DNA of 39,308 nt from Sphingomonadaceae bacterium. GTDB lineage: Bacteria > Pseudomonadota > Alphaproteobacteria > Sphingomonadales > Sphingomonadaceae. The translations under genes and the position numbers were made by a program. Below the pieces are notes generated by a model. It made no database searches. It saw nothing but the letters and a program-made list of their open reading frames with translations, and was not told where the DNA came from. The stretch is from positions 1 through 39,308 of the forward strand of contig JADLBY010000117.1 in the NCBI GenBank assembly GCA_020847445.1, read 5' to 3'. Shown here one piece after another: positions 7,264 to 38,519 of this stretch (positions within the stretch are counted from its first letter, which is position 1; each line of letters opens with the position of its first letter).

Positions 7264-10200
7264 GCACAGGGTTCGCCGAACTGGTTGCCGCAACCAATTA
7301 CAGCTTTCTGCGCGGGGCATCGCACCCTGCCGATATGGTATGGCGCGCGGCCTTGCTGGGGATGACGGGCATCGGCATTGCCGACCGGAATACGGTGGCC
7401 GGGGTGGTGCGCGCGCATGTCGCCTGGCGCGAGGTGCGCGCGCAGATTCCCGGTTTCCGTCTGGTGGTGGGCGCGCGGCTGGTGTTTGCCGATGCCACGC
7501 CGGACATCATCGCCTATCCGGCAACCCGCCATGGCTGGGGGCGGTTGACCCGGCTGCTCACGCTCGGCAACCGGCGCGCGGTGAAGGGCGACTGCATCCT
7601 TTATTTGGCGGACCTGCTCGAACATGGCGAAGACCTGTTGCTGATAATCCTCCCTGGCACGGGGAGGGGGACCGCGCCACAAAGTGGCGGGGTGGAGGGG
7701 CACGTGCAGAATATCCTGCCGCCGAAAGCTCAGCAAAACCGGCCTGCACCCCTCGACCATGCTTCGCATGATCCCCCTCCCCGCGCAGGGGAGGAATTGT
7801 TCGGCCACCTCAAGGCCGCTTTCCAGGACCGTCTCTGGCTTGGCGCAACGATGCCGCGCGGCGGGGCCGATGCCCGCAGGCTTGCGGAACGCGCCGCTTT
7901 GGGTGCGGCAACCGGCATCCCCCTGATCGCCACCAATGATGCGCTTTATGCGACGCCGGACAATCGCGCGCTCCACGATATCGTCACCTGCATCCGCGAA
8001 GGGACGACGATCGAGGCGGCGGGCAGGCGCCTTCTTGCCAATGCCGAACGGCATCTGAAACCGCCCGGAGAGATGGCGCGGCTGTTCCGTCATCACCCGC
8101 AAGCGGTCGCGGCGACGCAGGATTTGCTCTCGCGCATCGCCTTCACCCTCGACGATCTCAGATATGAATATCCGCACGAGCCGGTGCCGCCCGGCTGGTG
8201 CCCGCAGGACTGGCTCGAGCATATGGTGATGGAGGCCGCCAACCGGCGTTTCCCCGAAGGCCTGCCCGTTATCTGGCGCAAGACGATCGATGAAGAGTTT
8301 CGCCTGATCCGTGCCAAGGACTATGCCTGTTACTTCCTCACCGTGCACGATGTGGTGCGCCATGCGCGCAGCCTTGATCCCCCGATCCTCTGCCAGGGGC
8401 GGGGGAGTGCGGCCAATTCGGTGGTCTGCTACCTGCTGGGGATCACCCCGGTCGATCCGGTGGCGAACAAGCTGCTCTTCACGCGCTTCCTTTCCGAAGA
8501 GCGCAACGAGCCGCCCGATATCGACGTCGATTTCGAACATGAACGGCGCGAGGAGGTGATGCAATATATCTATGCGCGCTATGGCCGCGAACGCGCCGGG
8601 ATTGCCGCAACGGTGATCCATTACCGCCCGAGGAGCACAATCCGCGAGGTTGGCAAGGCGCTGGGTTTTACCGAGGATGTCACCGCGCGGCTTGCCGGCA
8701 CCCTCTGGGGCAGCTGGGGCGGCGATGTGCCCGACGCACGCATCAGCGAGGCGGGCTTTGATCCGGCCAATCCGGGAATCGCGCGGCTGGGCCATCTGGT
8801 GGGCCAGCTGCTCGAATTTCCCCGGCACCTGTCGCAGCATGTCGGCGGCTTTGTGCTGACCGAGGGGCGGTTGGACGAACTGGTGCCGATCCATAATGCC
8901 GCGATGCCCGACCGCACCTTCATCGAATGGGACAAGGACGATATCGACGCGCTCGGGCTGATGAAGGTTGATGTGCTGGCGCTGGGGATGCTGACCTGCA
9001 TCCGGAAAAGCTTTGATCTGATGCGCGCCAACGGCCTGGGCGATTACAATCTGGCCACCATCCCCACCGATTGCCCCAAGGTCTATGCCATGCTGCAAAA
9101 GGGCGACAGCATCGGCACATTCCAGGTCGAAAGCCGGGCGCAGATCAACATGCTGCCGCGGATGAAGCCCAAAACCCTCTATGATCTTGTCATCCAGGTG
9201 GCGATCGTCCGGCCCGGGCCGATCCAGGGCGGGATGGTGCATCCCTATCTGCGCCGCCGCAATGGCGAGGAGGCGGTCGACTTTCCCTCGCCCGCGCCGC
9301 CGCACAACCCCGATGAACTGCGCGACGTGCTCGAAAAGACGCTGGGGGTGCCGCTGTTCCAGGAACAGGCGATGAAGCTTGCCATCGTCGCGGCAGGCTT
9401 CACCCCGGCACAGGCCGATGGCCTCCGGCGGGCGATGGCAACCTTTCGCAATGTCGGCACGATGCACCGTTACGAAGAGATGCTGGTCGATGGCATGGTC
9501 GCGCGCGGCTATAGCCGCGACTTTGCCGAACGCTGTTACGGCCAGATCAGGGGATTTGGCGAATATGGCTTTCCCGAAAGCCATGCGCAGGCGTTCGGAT
9601 GGCTGGCCTATGTGTCGAGCTGGCTCAAATGCCATCATCCGGCGGTGTTCACCTGCGCGCTACTGAACGCGCAGCCCATGGGCTTTTATGCGCCTGCGCA
9701 ACTGGTGCGCGACGCGCGGGAGCATGGTGTCGCGGTGCATGGGGTCGATATCAATGCGAGCGGATGGGATAATAGGGTGGGGCCCAAACTGGCCCTGCGG
9801 CTTGGTTTTCGCCAGATCGACGGTTTCCGGCAGGCATGGGGCAGGGCCATAGAGGAGGCGCGTGCCGCAGGCCGCTTCGGTTCGATCGAGGATCTTGCCC
9901 GCCGCGCCACCCTGCCCCCCGCCGCGCTGCGCAAGCTGGCTGATGCCGATGCTTTCGGTTCGCTCGGCAAGGGGCGGCGCGATGCGTTGTGGGAAGCGCG
10001 CCGGACCCCGCCCGATCAGCTGCCGCTGTTCGCCTTTGCCGACGCCGCCGAACTGGGCGCGGAACCCGATGCCCGCCTTCCTGCCATGCCGCTGTCGGAG
10101 GAGGTGGTCGCCGATTACCAGATGTTGCGGCTCTCGTTGAAGGCGCATCCGATGCAGTTTCTGCGCGATGCCTTCACGCGCGAGGGCGTATCGAGTTGTG

Positions 10201-22936: not shown

Positions 22937-23017
22937 CGGCACCGGCCCGCTCCGCCACCCGGCCTCCCGAACAGGCTATTGCAGGGGGAGGCCGGGTGGA
23001 GGAGAGGTCTGGTGCCG
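22937..23017. repeat. Long imperfect hairpin between bamB and der
   Basis: CCACCCGGCCTCCC (22956-22969 region) and its exact reverse complement GGGAGGCCGGGTGG face each other across about 16 bases. The pairing extends outwards, with mismatches, to CGGCACC (22937-22943) and GGTGCCG (23011-23017), giving arms of about 32 bp. No T-run follows closely, so it is more like a dispersed palindromic repeat or an RNA-stability element than a simple terminator. Confidence 0.75.
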
Positions 23018-33789: not shown

Positions 33790-35354
33790 GCGATTTCCTT
33801 TCCGGCGACCATGGCGCGCAATTCGGTTTTCAGCAGCTTGCCGATATGGCTGCGCGGCATTTCCCCGATCTGGAAGAGCGCGGTCAGCCGCTGGGTCTTG
33901 CCCAGTTGCGCGTTCGCCGCCGCCAGCAGGGCATCGGTATCGAGCCGGGCGTCTCTGGCACCGCAAACAAAGCCGACCGGGGTTTCGCCCCAGCGTTCGC
34001 TCGGCACACCGATCACCGCGGCTTCTTCGACACCCGGCAGGCCAAGCAAAATGCCTTCCAGATCAACCGGATAGATATTGAATCCGCCCGAAATGATCAT
34101 GTCTTTCGACCGGCCGAGCAGTTCGACAAAGCCATCGGCATCGACGCGGCCGATATCGCCCATGCGCTGCCAGATGCTGCCGTCGTCGGGATCGATCCAA
34201 TAGCCTTCGCGGGTCTTTTCGGGCTGGTTCTGATAGCCCGACATCATCGTTGCCGAACGTCCGACCAGTTCGCCCGTCTCGCCCGCAGGCAGGCGGTTGC
34301 CAGCCTCGTCGATGGTGAACACCTCGCTGCCTTTCCAGGGGATGCCGACCGTGTGCAGCTTGTCGGGATGTTCGTGCGCCTGCAGCAGGCAGACCACGCC
34401 ACCTTCGGTCATCGAATAGATTTCGACCAGCCCGCCCGGCCAGCGTTTGAGCACATCGGCCTTCAGCGCGGGCGCGAAGGGGGCGCTGGTGCAATATTTC
34501 AGCCAATAGCTCGACAGGTCGTAATCGCCGAATTTTTCATATTCCATCAACCGCTTATACTGGACGGGCACCAGCATGGTGTGGGTGATGCGGTGCTTTT
34601 GCGCGCGCTCCAGATAGCCGACGGTGTCGAATTTGCCCATCAGGTGCAGCGTCCCGCCATAGGCCAGCGTCGGGATGACGAGCGCCAATGTGGTGTTCGA
34701 ATAGAGCGGGGTCGAGGCGAGCGAGGCCGCTTCGGGCGCGCCATAGCCGGTATTGGCACCGACACAGGCATGCAGCCAGCGCATCTGGCGCGAATGGATG
34801 ATGCCCTTGGGGGTACCTGTCGTTCCGCTCGAATAGATGATGTTGAACGGGTCTTTCGGCCCGCAACCGTGCGGCGCAGCCTCGGCGCCTTCTTCCGCCA
34901 TCCAGCCGGAAATGTCGGGATTGTCGCCCAGCGGCGCATCGAGCATGATCGTCTTGACCGGCGGCAGATCGCGTCCGGCGAGATCGGACAGCTTGGGCGC
35001 GTCGATGAACAGATGGATCGCGCCCGAATCCTTCAGCATTGCCTCCAGCTGTTGCGGCGTTGCCGAGGTGGTCAGCGGCGCCGCGCATCCGCCGGCCCGG
35101 ATCGCGCCCAGATAGGCCAGCGCATAGCGCACGCTGCTGGTTCCCAATATCGCGACCGCCTGGCCCTTTTGCAGCCCGTCGCGCTGCAATTGCGCCGCAA
35201 TCCGTTCGACCAGCGCCGCAACCTCGGCCCAGGTCAGGCTTTCGCTGCCGTCATCAAGCGCAACCCGATCGGGCCGCTCGCGCCCCCATGCGGCAATCAG
35301 CCCGCTATAGTCACCAAAGGGTTTTTCCAGTTCGGCCGTCGGGTCGAATGTCAT
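33786..35354 (-). CDS. Acyl-CoA synthetase (class I AMP-forming ligase)
   Basis: The protein has 522 residues. It has IIYSSGTTGTPKGIIHS as P-loop, the YSMTEGG motif, RMGDIGRVDADGFVELLGR in the hinge region, ISGGFNIYPVDLEG and the C-terminal catalytic Lys in SHIGKLLKTELR. It would activate a carboxylic acid to a CoA ester; the substrate is not evident. ATG 35354 is chosen for its GGAGAG site and a normal N-terminus; a longer reading passes through the inverted repeat of the 35395-35887 element and is rejected. It overlaps the DUF2721 gene downstream. The left end of that element lies 41 bp before its start and so borders or disrupts its original promoter. Confidence 0.88.
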   Translation of the reverse strand: MTFDPTAELEKPFGDYSGLIAAWGRERPDRVALDDGSESLTWAEVAALVERIAAQLQRDGLQKGQAVAILGTSSVRYALAYLGAIRAGGCAAPLTTSATPQQLEAMLKDSGAIHLFIDAPKLSDLAGRDLPPVKTIMLDAPLGDNPDISGWMAEEGAEAAPHGCGPKDPFNIIYSSGTTGTPKGIIHSRQMRWLHACVGANTGYGAPEAASLASTPLYSNTTLALVIPTLAYGGTLHLMGKFDTVGYLERAQKHRITHTMLVPVQYKRLMEYEKFGDYDLSSYWLKYCTSAPFAPALKADVLKRWPGGLVEIYSMTEGGVVCLLQAHEHPDKLHTVGIPWKGSEVFTIDEAGNRLPAGETGELVGRSATMMSGYQNQPEKTREGYWIDPDDGSIWQRMGDIGRVDADGFVELLGRSKDMIISGGFNIYPVDLEGILLGLPGVEEAAVIGVPSERWGETPVGFVCGARDARLDTDALLAAANAQLGKTQRLTALFQIGEMPRSHIGKLLKTELRAMVAGKEIA

Positions 35355-35394
35355 CGCGTCTCTCTCCGTCTTTCCTTGCCAGAGAGCTAGTGCC

Positions 35395-35887
35395 ATATTT
35401 TTCCTCAGAAGGAAGAAGGAAATAAGGAAGAAGGCGGCATCGGCATCTTCAACGGTTGTTGTAGATGCGTCGGACGCCCTCGACAAAAGTTTCGCAGCCA
35501 AAATTCATAATCAGCCCATAGGGCTGATTGAGCAATTTCACATAAGTCTGCGCTTGCCTGATATGCACGCCCAGCAGCTTTTCATGCGCCTTCAGCTCAA
35601 CGACCAGCCAGTTGTTGATGAACAAATCGACACGGTAGGCGTCCACAAACTCGAAGCCGTCGACCGCAATGTTGACCGGCATTTGCCGAACAACAGGAAC
35701 GCCCATCCGCTGCAGGCGACCGGCCAATATGGTTTCATAGACCGATTCCAGAAGGCCCGGACCCAGTTCCTTGTGCAGCCGGAATCCGGCATCGATCAAA
35801 CAGGAAATCAGCCGCTCTTGCTCTGCTCTTGTTGCCAACGCGCCGCCCCTTATTGCTTATTTCCTTCTTCCTTCTGAGGAAAAATAT
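35395..35887. mobile_element. Candidate 493-bp mobile unit with 32-bp terminal inverted repeats
   Basis: Positions 35395-35426 and 35856-35887 are exact reverse complements over 32 bases; each end contains CCTCAGAAGGAAGAAGGA on one strand. Matching stops exactly at both sides of the 32 bp. The only gene between them is the GxxExxY gene at 35449-35838, which fills most of the unit. The ends are AT- and purine-rich, unlike flanking DNA. No target-site duplication is visible. No transposase is present, so movement would need a factor in trans or the GxxExxY protein itself. Confidence 0.6.
35449..35838 (-). CDS. GxxExxY-family protein
   Basis: The protein has 129 residues and is a GxxExxY protein. 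The name-giving motif is GPGLLESVYE. The following VDAYRVDLFINNWLVVELKA has the D-x(n)-E-x-K spacing of PD-(D/E)XK nucleases, and the end has NFGCETFVEGVRRIY. The family has no proven function; a nuclease-like role is inferred from the fold motif. The start is TTG 35836-35838 with AAGGGG seven bases upstream, and no in-frame ATG lies before it: a stop sits in the flanking repeat. It is enclosed by 32-bp inverted repeats and separates acyl-CoA synthetase and gyrB, suggesting that it travels as part of a small element. Confidence 0.9.
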   Translation of the reverse strand: MATRAEQERLISCLIDAGFRLHKELGPGLLESVYETILAGRLQRMGVPVVRQMPVNIAVDGFEFVDAYRVDLFINNWLVVELKAHEKLLGVHIRQAQTYVKLLNQPYGLIMNFGCETFVEGVRRIYNNR

Positions 35888-35990
35888 TCACACCCTTTCG
35901 ACCAACACAAACCCCGCAATTGCCTAGGCAAATATATGTGGAAAAAGACCCCGAAAGCTCGCCTTTCGCGGCGCTCTCGCTTATGGTTGA

Positions 35991-38519
<2,529 letters not shown>

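Follow-up and report, generated by a model that had tools for sequence, protein, structure and literature searches.

REPIN–RAYT systems and the IVS elements of 23S rRNA are the described systems that are closest to the locus presented here. In the available text of the papers that deal with them, RAYT genes are described as vertically inherited, single-copy genes that are absent from plasmids and flanked by inverted REPs, with REPINs dispersed in the genome (PMC8049555; PMC2817692; PMC3116915). The IVS of Coxiella, as covered in the available part of its source, is a 428-nt element with an ORF, in which tandem heptamers lie beside the S23p ORF, and it is excised by RNase III; S23p is probably not expressed from it, which speaks against an active protein in the Coxiella IVS (PMC4990558).

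The unit considered here lies in the window (the whole 39,308-nt stretch of Sphingomonadaceae DNA that was analysed) and consists of two inverted arms that enclose a single GxxExxY gene. PD-(D/E)XK nucleases with a link to DNA mobility include the Rpn/YhgA-type recombination-promoting nucleases and TnsA, the latter of which works with a DDE partner; Rpn is not known to have inverted-arm packaging. Our preferred reading is that the unit represents, with its gene, a family of elements with repeat ends, whose arms are acted on by the mechanism proposed below; we put its probability at about 0.6. It is highly probable that the family is mobile or dispersed and that the gene is cognate to it.

Likeness to REPIN–RAYT systems, in the available text of the papers, extends to an enzyme gene flanked by two inverted repeats, to the scattering of that repeat through intergenic DNA as short inverted doublets, and to different repeat types that pair with different enzyme genes (PMC2817692; PMC3116915; PMC8049555). 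The GxxExxY gene lies between two inverted copies of one repeat, and dispersed doublets tied to the gene were found, the tie being weaker with a loose arm pattern. The analogy to REP-linked elements drawn in an earlier note on this DNA holds in that a resident enzyme gene is accompanied by dispersed short inverted pairs, and the behaviour of the family resembles REPIN–RAYT more closely than it does an active insertion sequence. The enzyme differs, being of PD-(D/E)XK type (PF13366, the only Pfam profile matched at E ≤ 0.001) and not a Y1/HUH transposase (Transposase_17), as do the arms, which are 30–40 bp of tandem 7–8 bp purine units and not GC palindromes headed by GT(A/G)G; neither head nor palindrome is present in the window arm. 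In addition, whereas RAYTs were not seen on plasmids according to the available text, the window protein has matches in 7 of 72,556 plasmid records.

With the 23S rRNA IVS, again as described in the available text, the unit shares a length of ∼430–490 nt, inverted ends, a single small ORF and tandem short repeats (PMC4990558). It differs in its unrelated protein family, with no S23/four-helix-bundle ORF, in a repeat period of 8 where the IVS has 7, and in its position outside rRNA genes, in the acyl-CoA synthetase/gyrB interval. The gene-less copies described below resemble MITEs: they are 100–150 bp long, have terminal inverted repeats and no gene, and are present or absent at orthologous sites, with empty sites seen in three cases. 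They differ in that no insertion sequence that encodes a known transposase could be identified as their parent; as to target-site duplications, one possible case was seen (at element 1 below) but no consistent one.

The unit and its GxxExxY protein

The features of the unit are collected in Table 1. Its arms are 95% complementary over 40 nt and stand 413 nt apart; the outer 32 nt (35395–35426 and 35856–35887) are identical, and the inner 8 nt contain two differences. They are the longest of 31 inverted pairs in the window with arms of at least 20 nt that are at most 1500 bp apart (25 listed, longest first). The earlier note had described identical 32-bp inverted ends around one gene, set between acyl-CoA synthetase and gyrB, and both points were confirmed: the arms enclose a single gene and extend to 40 nt, and ORF positions place the unit between the starts of the synthetase (minus strand) and gyrB (plus strand). 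Two of its details are corrected here, in that the ends are not simply AT-rich but consist of a T-run and then purine-rich tandem units, and they are not private to the unit but belong to a family dispersed in the genome. The AAGGGG stretch is, from its sequence and position, a putative Shine-Dalgarno element. Searching 34000–37000 against Rfam gave no match up to E 1, and a structured RNA of a known family was rejected on that result.

Table 1. Positions of the unit and its parts in the window.
Feature	Position	Strand	Evidence or remark
Whole unit: inverted arms and GxxExxY gene	35395..35887	.	Of 29 orthologous intervals, 4 hold arms plus gene, 3 hold only arms and 22 hold neither
Left arm: T-run, CCTC, purine units AGAAGG/AAGAAGG/AAATAAGG/AAGAAGG	35395..35434	+	Member of a family with 12 further sites in this genome
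Right arm: inverted copy of left arm, outer 32 nt identical	35848..35887	-	
GxxExxY / PDDEXK_3 gene, 129 aa, TTG start	35449..35838	-	Profile matches, 20-row alignment, model, Foldseek
Shine-Dalgarno-like AAGGGG (putative)	35846..35851	-	Overlaps inner end of right arm, 7 nt before TTG start

Membership of the window protein in the GxxExxY/PDDEXK_3 family is established by curated cut-offs: it matches the TIGR04256 GxxExxY profile at E 1.5e-29 (102.7 bits against a cut-off of 35) and the PF13366 PDDEXK_3 profile at E 5.1e-30 (104.7 bits against 22). Within a 20-row alignment H22, E31, Y34, D71, E81, K83 and Y99 are invariant and Q95 is nearly so. D71 and E81-x-K83 supply the D…ExK pattern of PD-(D/E)XK nucleases, alongside an alpha/beta core in the AlphaFold2 model (pLDDT 92.1, pTM 0.86). 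The best Foldseek match of the model, and the sole one at E ≤ 0.001, is SSO0001 (4ic1; E 7.7e-4, TM 0.40), which we take to be a Cas4-type nuclease; Bax1 and lambda-type exonucleases are among the further matches, and RNA splicing endonucleases stand lower in the list. A search by sequence returned no solved homologue at E ≤ 1, and profile search detected no transposase domain in the gene. From the invariance of D71, E81 and K83, the model and the Foldseek match, the protein would appear to be a small one of PD-(D/E)XK type in which the D-ExK-Q..Y signature is intact, with a predicted nuclease activity.

Values of dN/dS were 0.03–0.29 in the 5 of 13 pairs for which they were computable, one of the five having a saturated and unreliable dS of 4.0; judged from these sequence comparisons, the gene is under purifying selection where dS is measurable. 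PADLOC returned one weak, partial match (RTasPDDEXK, E 0.0039, profile positions 118–169 of 226), and, with this as the only match, a known defence system appears unlikely. In the available text of the literature searched, no function is reported for the GxxExxY family, widespread as it is, and the name occurs in passing.

Several observations were made beside these. One GxxExxY copy in the same genome (L033; G000, C76:7669–7887) lacks profile positions 47–85 in frame, a deletion that should include the D-ExK core, and its 43-bp arms are still 93% matched. Short inverted pairs of a second type, GGGGAGGGGGA, with arms of 24–29 nt that are 92–100 nt apart, are found elsewhere in the window, at 7648–7795, and at 1525–1674 of L032, beside the GxxExxY locus of contig C84; they are possibly another dispersed repeat family. 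At 22937–23017 of the window, 32-nt arms matched at 88% around a 17-nt loop form a strong GC-rich hairpin.

Gene-less copies, filled sites and empty sites

The genome from which the window derives (G000; 3.15 Mb in 232 contigs) gave 38 matches to the unit and 15 pattern matches to the 32-nt arm core at ≤3 mismatches. The places matched are the window unit and 12 gene-less inverted pairs of 100–254 bp, each with the plan arm, spacer, inverted arm, and these copies elsewhere support the earlier note's reading of the unit as an element. Two of the 12 pairs are on contig C186 in similar flanks, which are probably duplicated, and the gene-less element of contig C121 (L009, 5288–5541; element 1 below) encloses a nested pair of the CGCAGAG type. 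In several pairs the arms are followed on their inner side by small GC hairpins, which were noticed by eye and are visible in folds; when five short elements were folded as ssDNA hairpins, z was −4.8 to −9.2.

The synthetase–gyrB interval was located in 45 genomes of the genus. Thirty loci were retrieved, and 29 of them could be read; the synthetase anchor, although translated out of frame, matched homologous DNA in these 29, and in distant genomes the interval lengths are therefore approximate. The unit with its gene occupies the gyrB-side site in G000, G002, G036 and G022, and an inverted pair without a gene is found there in G019, G016 and G031; these seven arm-bearing intervals have inverted-repeat scores of 40–87. 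The remaining 22 are 126–210 bp long, have no arms and score ≤21, in agreement with the expectation that the unit would be missing from this interval in relatives.

Comparison of orthologous sites was extended to three gene-less copies, and each of these is absent from most of the relatives read. Element 1 is filled in G000 and G002; amongst the 12 relatives asked, its site is empty by alignment in 10, and in G029 it is contiguous by BLAST, with no usable alignment row. It sits exactly between the stop and the start of two same-strand ORFs, both of which are kept. Stop and start are separated by 1 bp in the empty sites of G061 and G032, as against 171 bp for G000 and 188 bp for G002. In G000 the insert reaches ∼31 bp past one arm; in G002 there is a possible 3-bp duplication (AAC), with none clear at other sites. 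Since the spacers of G000 and G002 differ, the two may have been inserted here independently. Of the genomes read at L014, likewise, only G000 and G002 contain elements A and B. At site A, 330 bp in G000 correspond to 77 bp in five relatives and to 148 bp without arms in G031, G019 and G022, whilst the 166 bp of G036 contain an inverted repeat of another kind, G012 has 1094 bp and G016 has no anchor. At site B, arms are missing both from the 55–77 bp of seven relatives and from the 836 bp that G062 and G001 have there; no anchor was obtained in G032 or G012. A different palindromic repeat, of the CCTGAA…TTCAGG type, was observed within the pairs that occupy the gyrB site of G016 and G031 without a gene, and also at site A in G036 (L072, L078, L243).

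Among the BLAST matches listed, GxxExxY loci share long flanks across species and genus boundaries, from which it follows that many gene-bearing copies are old residents; indeed, many are long-lived and syntenic. The recent insertion inferred in the earlier note from the perfect ends is not upheld, given that the gene-bearing unit is at the same gyrB-side site in four genomes and that other GxxExxY loci are syntenic across genera among the matches listed. That note had also held that the unit would be a fixed gene if all relatives carried it at the same place and its end occurred nowhere else, and neither proved to be so. Its view of a mobile element consequently stands as regards copies elsewhere, empty sites and the REP-like analogy, and falls as regards recent insertion. 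A tblastn search with the window protein at E 1e-5, at which divergent members could be missed, found 0 matches in 50,697 phage records and matches in 7 of 72,556 plasmid records. An active or recently inserted insertion sequence was rejected in view of these counts, the missing transposase domain (no DDE, HUH or recombinase transposase of its own is encoded) and the many syntenic loci. Dispersal of the element and its tie to the gene are supported.

Arm type, protein type and packaging across phyla

In a set of 61 genomes (the source genome and 60 relatives), a GxxExxY gene is found in 16, all within the genus, with one to four genes of several arm types per gene-bearing genome when split copies are counted once. 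The window-type arm pattern occurs in exactly five, namely G000 (20 matches), G002 (9), G016 (6), G022 (1) and G036 (6), and its reversed control is absent from all 61. These are the same five genomes that hold the window-type protein clade, which comprises the window gene, those of G002, G022 and G036 (C1), and gene L091 of G016 (support 99/94). On a gyrB tree, built from one 700-bp fragment and with several weakly supported forks, the five are interleaved with gene-less genomes, G016 and G022 for example grouping with G019 and G031 (100/100), and shared ancestry alone is therefore no explanation. L091 is the sister of the window gene (100/95) at a different place with similar arms, the gyrB site of G016 being held by the gene-less pair. 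The exact match of gene and arm in five of 61 depends partly on the strictness of the pattern, because G019 and G031 keep diverged arms without a gene that the window-type pattern misses. In G016, G022 and G036 none of the pattern matches is at the gene itself, the arms of which have diverged too far to fit the pattern.

A looser general pattern of three CRCRRAG units was found in 19 of the 61 genomes (reversed control, 4), with both arms and gene in 11, arms only in 8, gene only in 5 and neither in 37. The tie of arm to gene has a Fisher p of 0.0003 over all 61 genomes, where 24 of the 37 with neither are all the genomes outside the genus; within the genus (37 genomes, 13 with neither) it is weak (p 0.099). 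Protein identity and arm similarity are correlated across 28 genus loci (Mantel r 0.64, above all 5000 permutations, and above permutations also when arms were shuffled only within genomes), L060 being left out; part of this correlation is vertical co-inheritance, since orthologous same-site loci were kept in. The correlation is 0.37 in 61 wider loci and 0.295 in 33 non-sphingomonad loci. The partner arm of a locus is closer than the mean of orthologous arms in 26 of 30 loci, but in only 1 of 5 at site S2, and this count, biased upward because arm choice maximises left–right similarity, is given no weight here.

All four GxxExxY genes of the source genome lie between inverted repeats, each of a different sequence, and the packaging was scored more widely as the inverted repeat over 300-bp flanks with displaced windows as the control. 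A control that paired the left flank of one locus with the right flank of another was rejected (99% point 295), as it is useless where loci share flanks. In the genus, 29 of 31 loci score above 35, the maximum of 116 displaced windows (L030, the same gene as L029, was left out), and the arms are mostly within ∼50 bp of the matched stretch. In a wider set, which is the best 80 of 572 relatives by similarity from several phyla and not a random draw, 61 of 78 loci score above 35 (median 45; L110 and L131, with short flanks, were left out), and 426 displaced windows have a median of 20, a 99% point of 36 and a maximum of 51. With L105 and L049 recognised as the same locus, the only such pair found, the 31 and 78 scored loci reduce to 108, and an inverted repeat spans 89 of these distinct loci from several phyla (the wider part again being the best 80 of 572); 19 of the 109 scored loci are at ≤35.

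By eye, the arms follow a grammar (t)TCACGC-RAAG-R-CGC-RAAG-R-CGC-RAAG with variants; the window arms are of a derived type. Across 90 arms that score ≥36 (L049 and L105 both included), identity at lag 8 comes to 0.483, whereas shuffled arms give 0.284 (sd 0.008). In 68 of the 90, this lag gives the highest identity. Three-unit arms of the CRCVRAG pattern were found in 25 of 30 genomes, at up to 68 sites (reversed control, 4 genomes); these genomes were chosen as gene carriers and nearly all are outside the sphingomonads. Arm copies crowd together locally in large numbers, in part spaced at 38 bp, at G190 C13:75000–75212, G170 C296:5021–6178 and G181 C37:28457–37668, and REPIN clusters in the available text of PMC3116915 resemble these clusters.

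Genes for the four-helix-bundle (IVS) protein, TIGR02436, are present in 5 of 96 genomes of the class and in 25 of the 30 GxxExxY-bearing genomes, with no match in G000. Their loci score above 35 in 15 of 37 cases (median 32), compared with a 95% point of 25 and a maximum of 39 in 144 displaced windows. Arms that score ≥30 (23 of 35 loci given) have a period of 7, with an identity of 0.671 against 0.314 and lag 7 the best in 17 of 23, and this period matches that of the tandem heptamers of the Coxiella IVS. Five rRNA motifs were sought among the loci in a partial test on short flanks, and matched only in L175 (three 23S motifs) and in L069, a gyrB locus (one motif). L175 comes from a relative in the class and has a four-helix-bundle gene with 48-nt arms adjoining the three 23S rRNA motifs; it is likely to be an IVS.

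Proposed mechanism and competing explanations

In the mechanism that we propose, the GxxExxY protein would recognise the tandem units of its cognate arms, either as hairpin or cruciform DNA or as a single strand at a fork, and would cut at them, after which host replication and repair would copy short arm–spacer–arm units to new sites. This would be REPIN–RAYT logic with a RecB/Cas4-like nuclease replacing the tyrosine transposase. A PD-(D/E)XK nuclease alone cannot join strands. We consider it somewhat more probable than not that the nuclease acts on the arms; mobility itself may not depend on the nuclease, because four-helix-bundle genes share the packaging.

The four-helix-bundle genes also bear on a different account, in which the elements act at the level of RNA as the 23S rRNA IVS does, the arm stem being cut by RNase III, the protein binding or maturing RNA and insertion being rare. 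These IVS-type genes have a similar plan of arms plus one gene with 7-bp units; the Coxiella IVS, in the available text of its source, combines 428 nt, an ORF, tandem heptamers and RNase III excision (PMC4990558); and element 1 lies exactly at a stop/start junction of two ORFs, where an RNA hairpin would be tolerable. The window unit, however, lies between divergent gene starts outside rRNA, the Rfam search of 34000–37000 gave nothing up to E 1, and the top matched folds are DNA nucleases (Cas4-type, Bax1, lambda-type exonucleases) with RNA splicing endonucleases below them, so that we regard an RNA-level element as unlikely. It is less likely still that GxxExxY genes are passengers, merely captured by generic host repeats that another enzyme moves. 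Gene-less copies with differing spacers, and the general arm pattern without a detected gene in 8 of 61 genomes, speak for passengers, but gene and arms are found together in one phylum after another, the type of arm goes with the type of protein, the window-type gene and arm pattern coincide in five of 61 genomes, and the gene is apparently under purifying selection where dS is measurable.

The presence of 12 gene-less pairs, three of them at tested sites that are empty in relatives, weighs against an explanation without mobility, in which the arms are operator- or antitoxin-like sites that control a toxin- or defence-like nuclease and were duplicated by ordinary rearrangement; the PADLOC match is also weak and partial (E 0.0039). 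We give this explanation little credence, even though most genus loci have their arms no more than ∼50 bp from the matched stretch, the right arm of the window supplies the Shine-Dalgarno-like stretch, and the syntenic loci are long-lived. Transcription terminators are hairpin-forming intergenic repeats too, but here the RNA hairpin would be followed by an A-run and not a U-run on either strand, and terminator hairpins were rejected on this wrong polarity of the T-run; an assembly artefact is at odds with the same kind of unit in many separate genomes. Either of these can hardly be correct.

The preferred reading thus remains a dispersed family of repeat-ended elements with a cognate nuclease gene. 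In the available text of the literature searched, a search with most subscription journals and bioRxiv preprints outside its scope, there is no description of inverted-arm packaging of GxxExxY genes, and arm strings gave only an unrelated match. The combination of a probable nuclease gene, scattered repeats and the same packaging in several phyla points to a type of mobile element that has attracted little notice. Should every one of these genes encode the enzyme cognate to the tandem-unit arms around it, the GxxExxY family would gain a testable substrate, a new type of enzyme would join the REPIN–RAYT style of within-genome dispersal, and IVS elements with their tandem heptamers, a long-standing puzzle, could be seen in a comparative frame. 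More tentatively, and with somewhat less than even odds, there may be a phylum-spanning ‘iteron-armed’ class that includes the 23S IVS, in which arms of tandem units surround one small gene, the protein sets the period (8 for GxxExxY, 7 for IVS), and the proteins recognise their own arms and spread gene-less copies, so that GxxExxY would be the enzyme family behind a mobility system not yet described. The heptamer arms of L196 and of other four-helix-bundle loci resemble the short tandemly repeated repetitive (STRR) sequences of cyanobacteria, which may be remnants of such elements.
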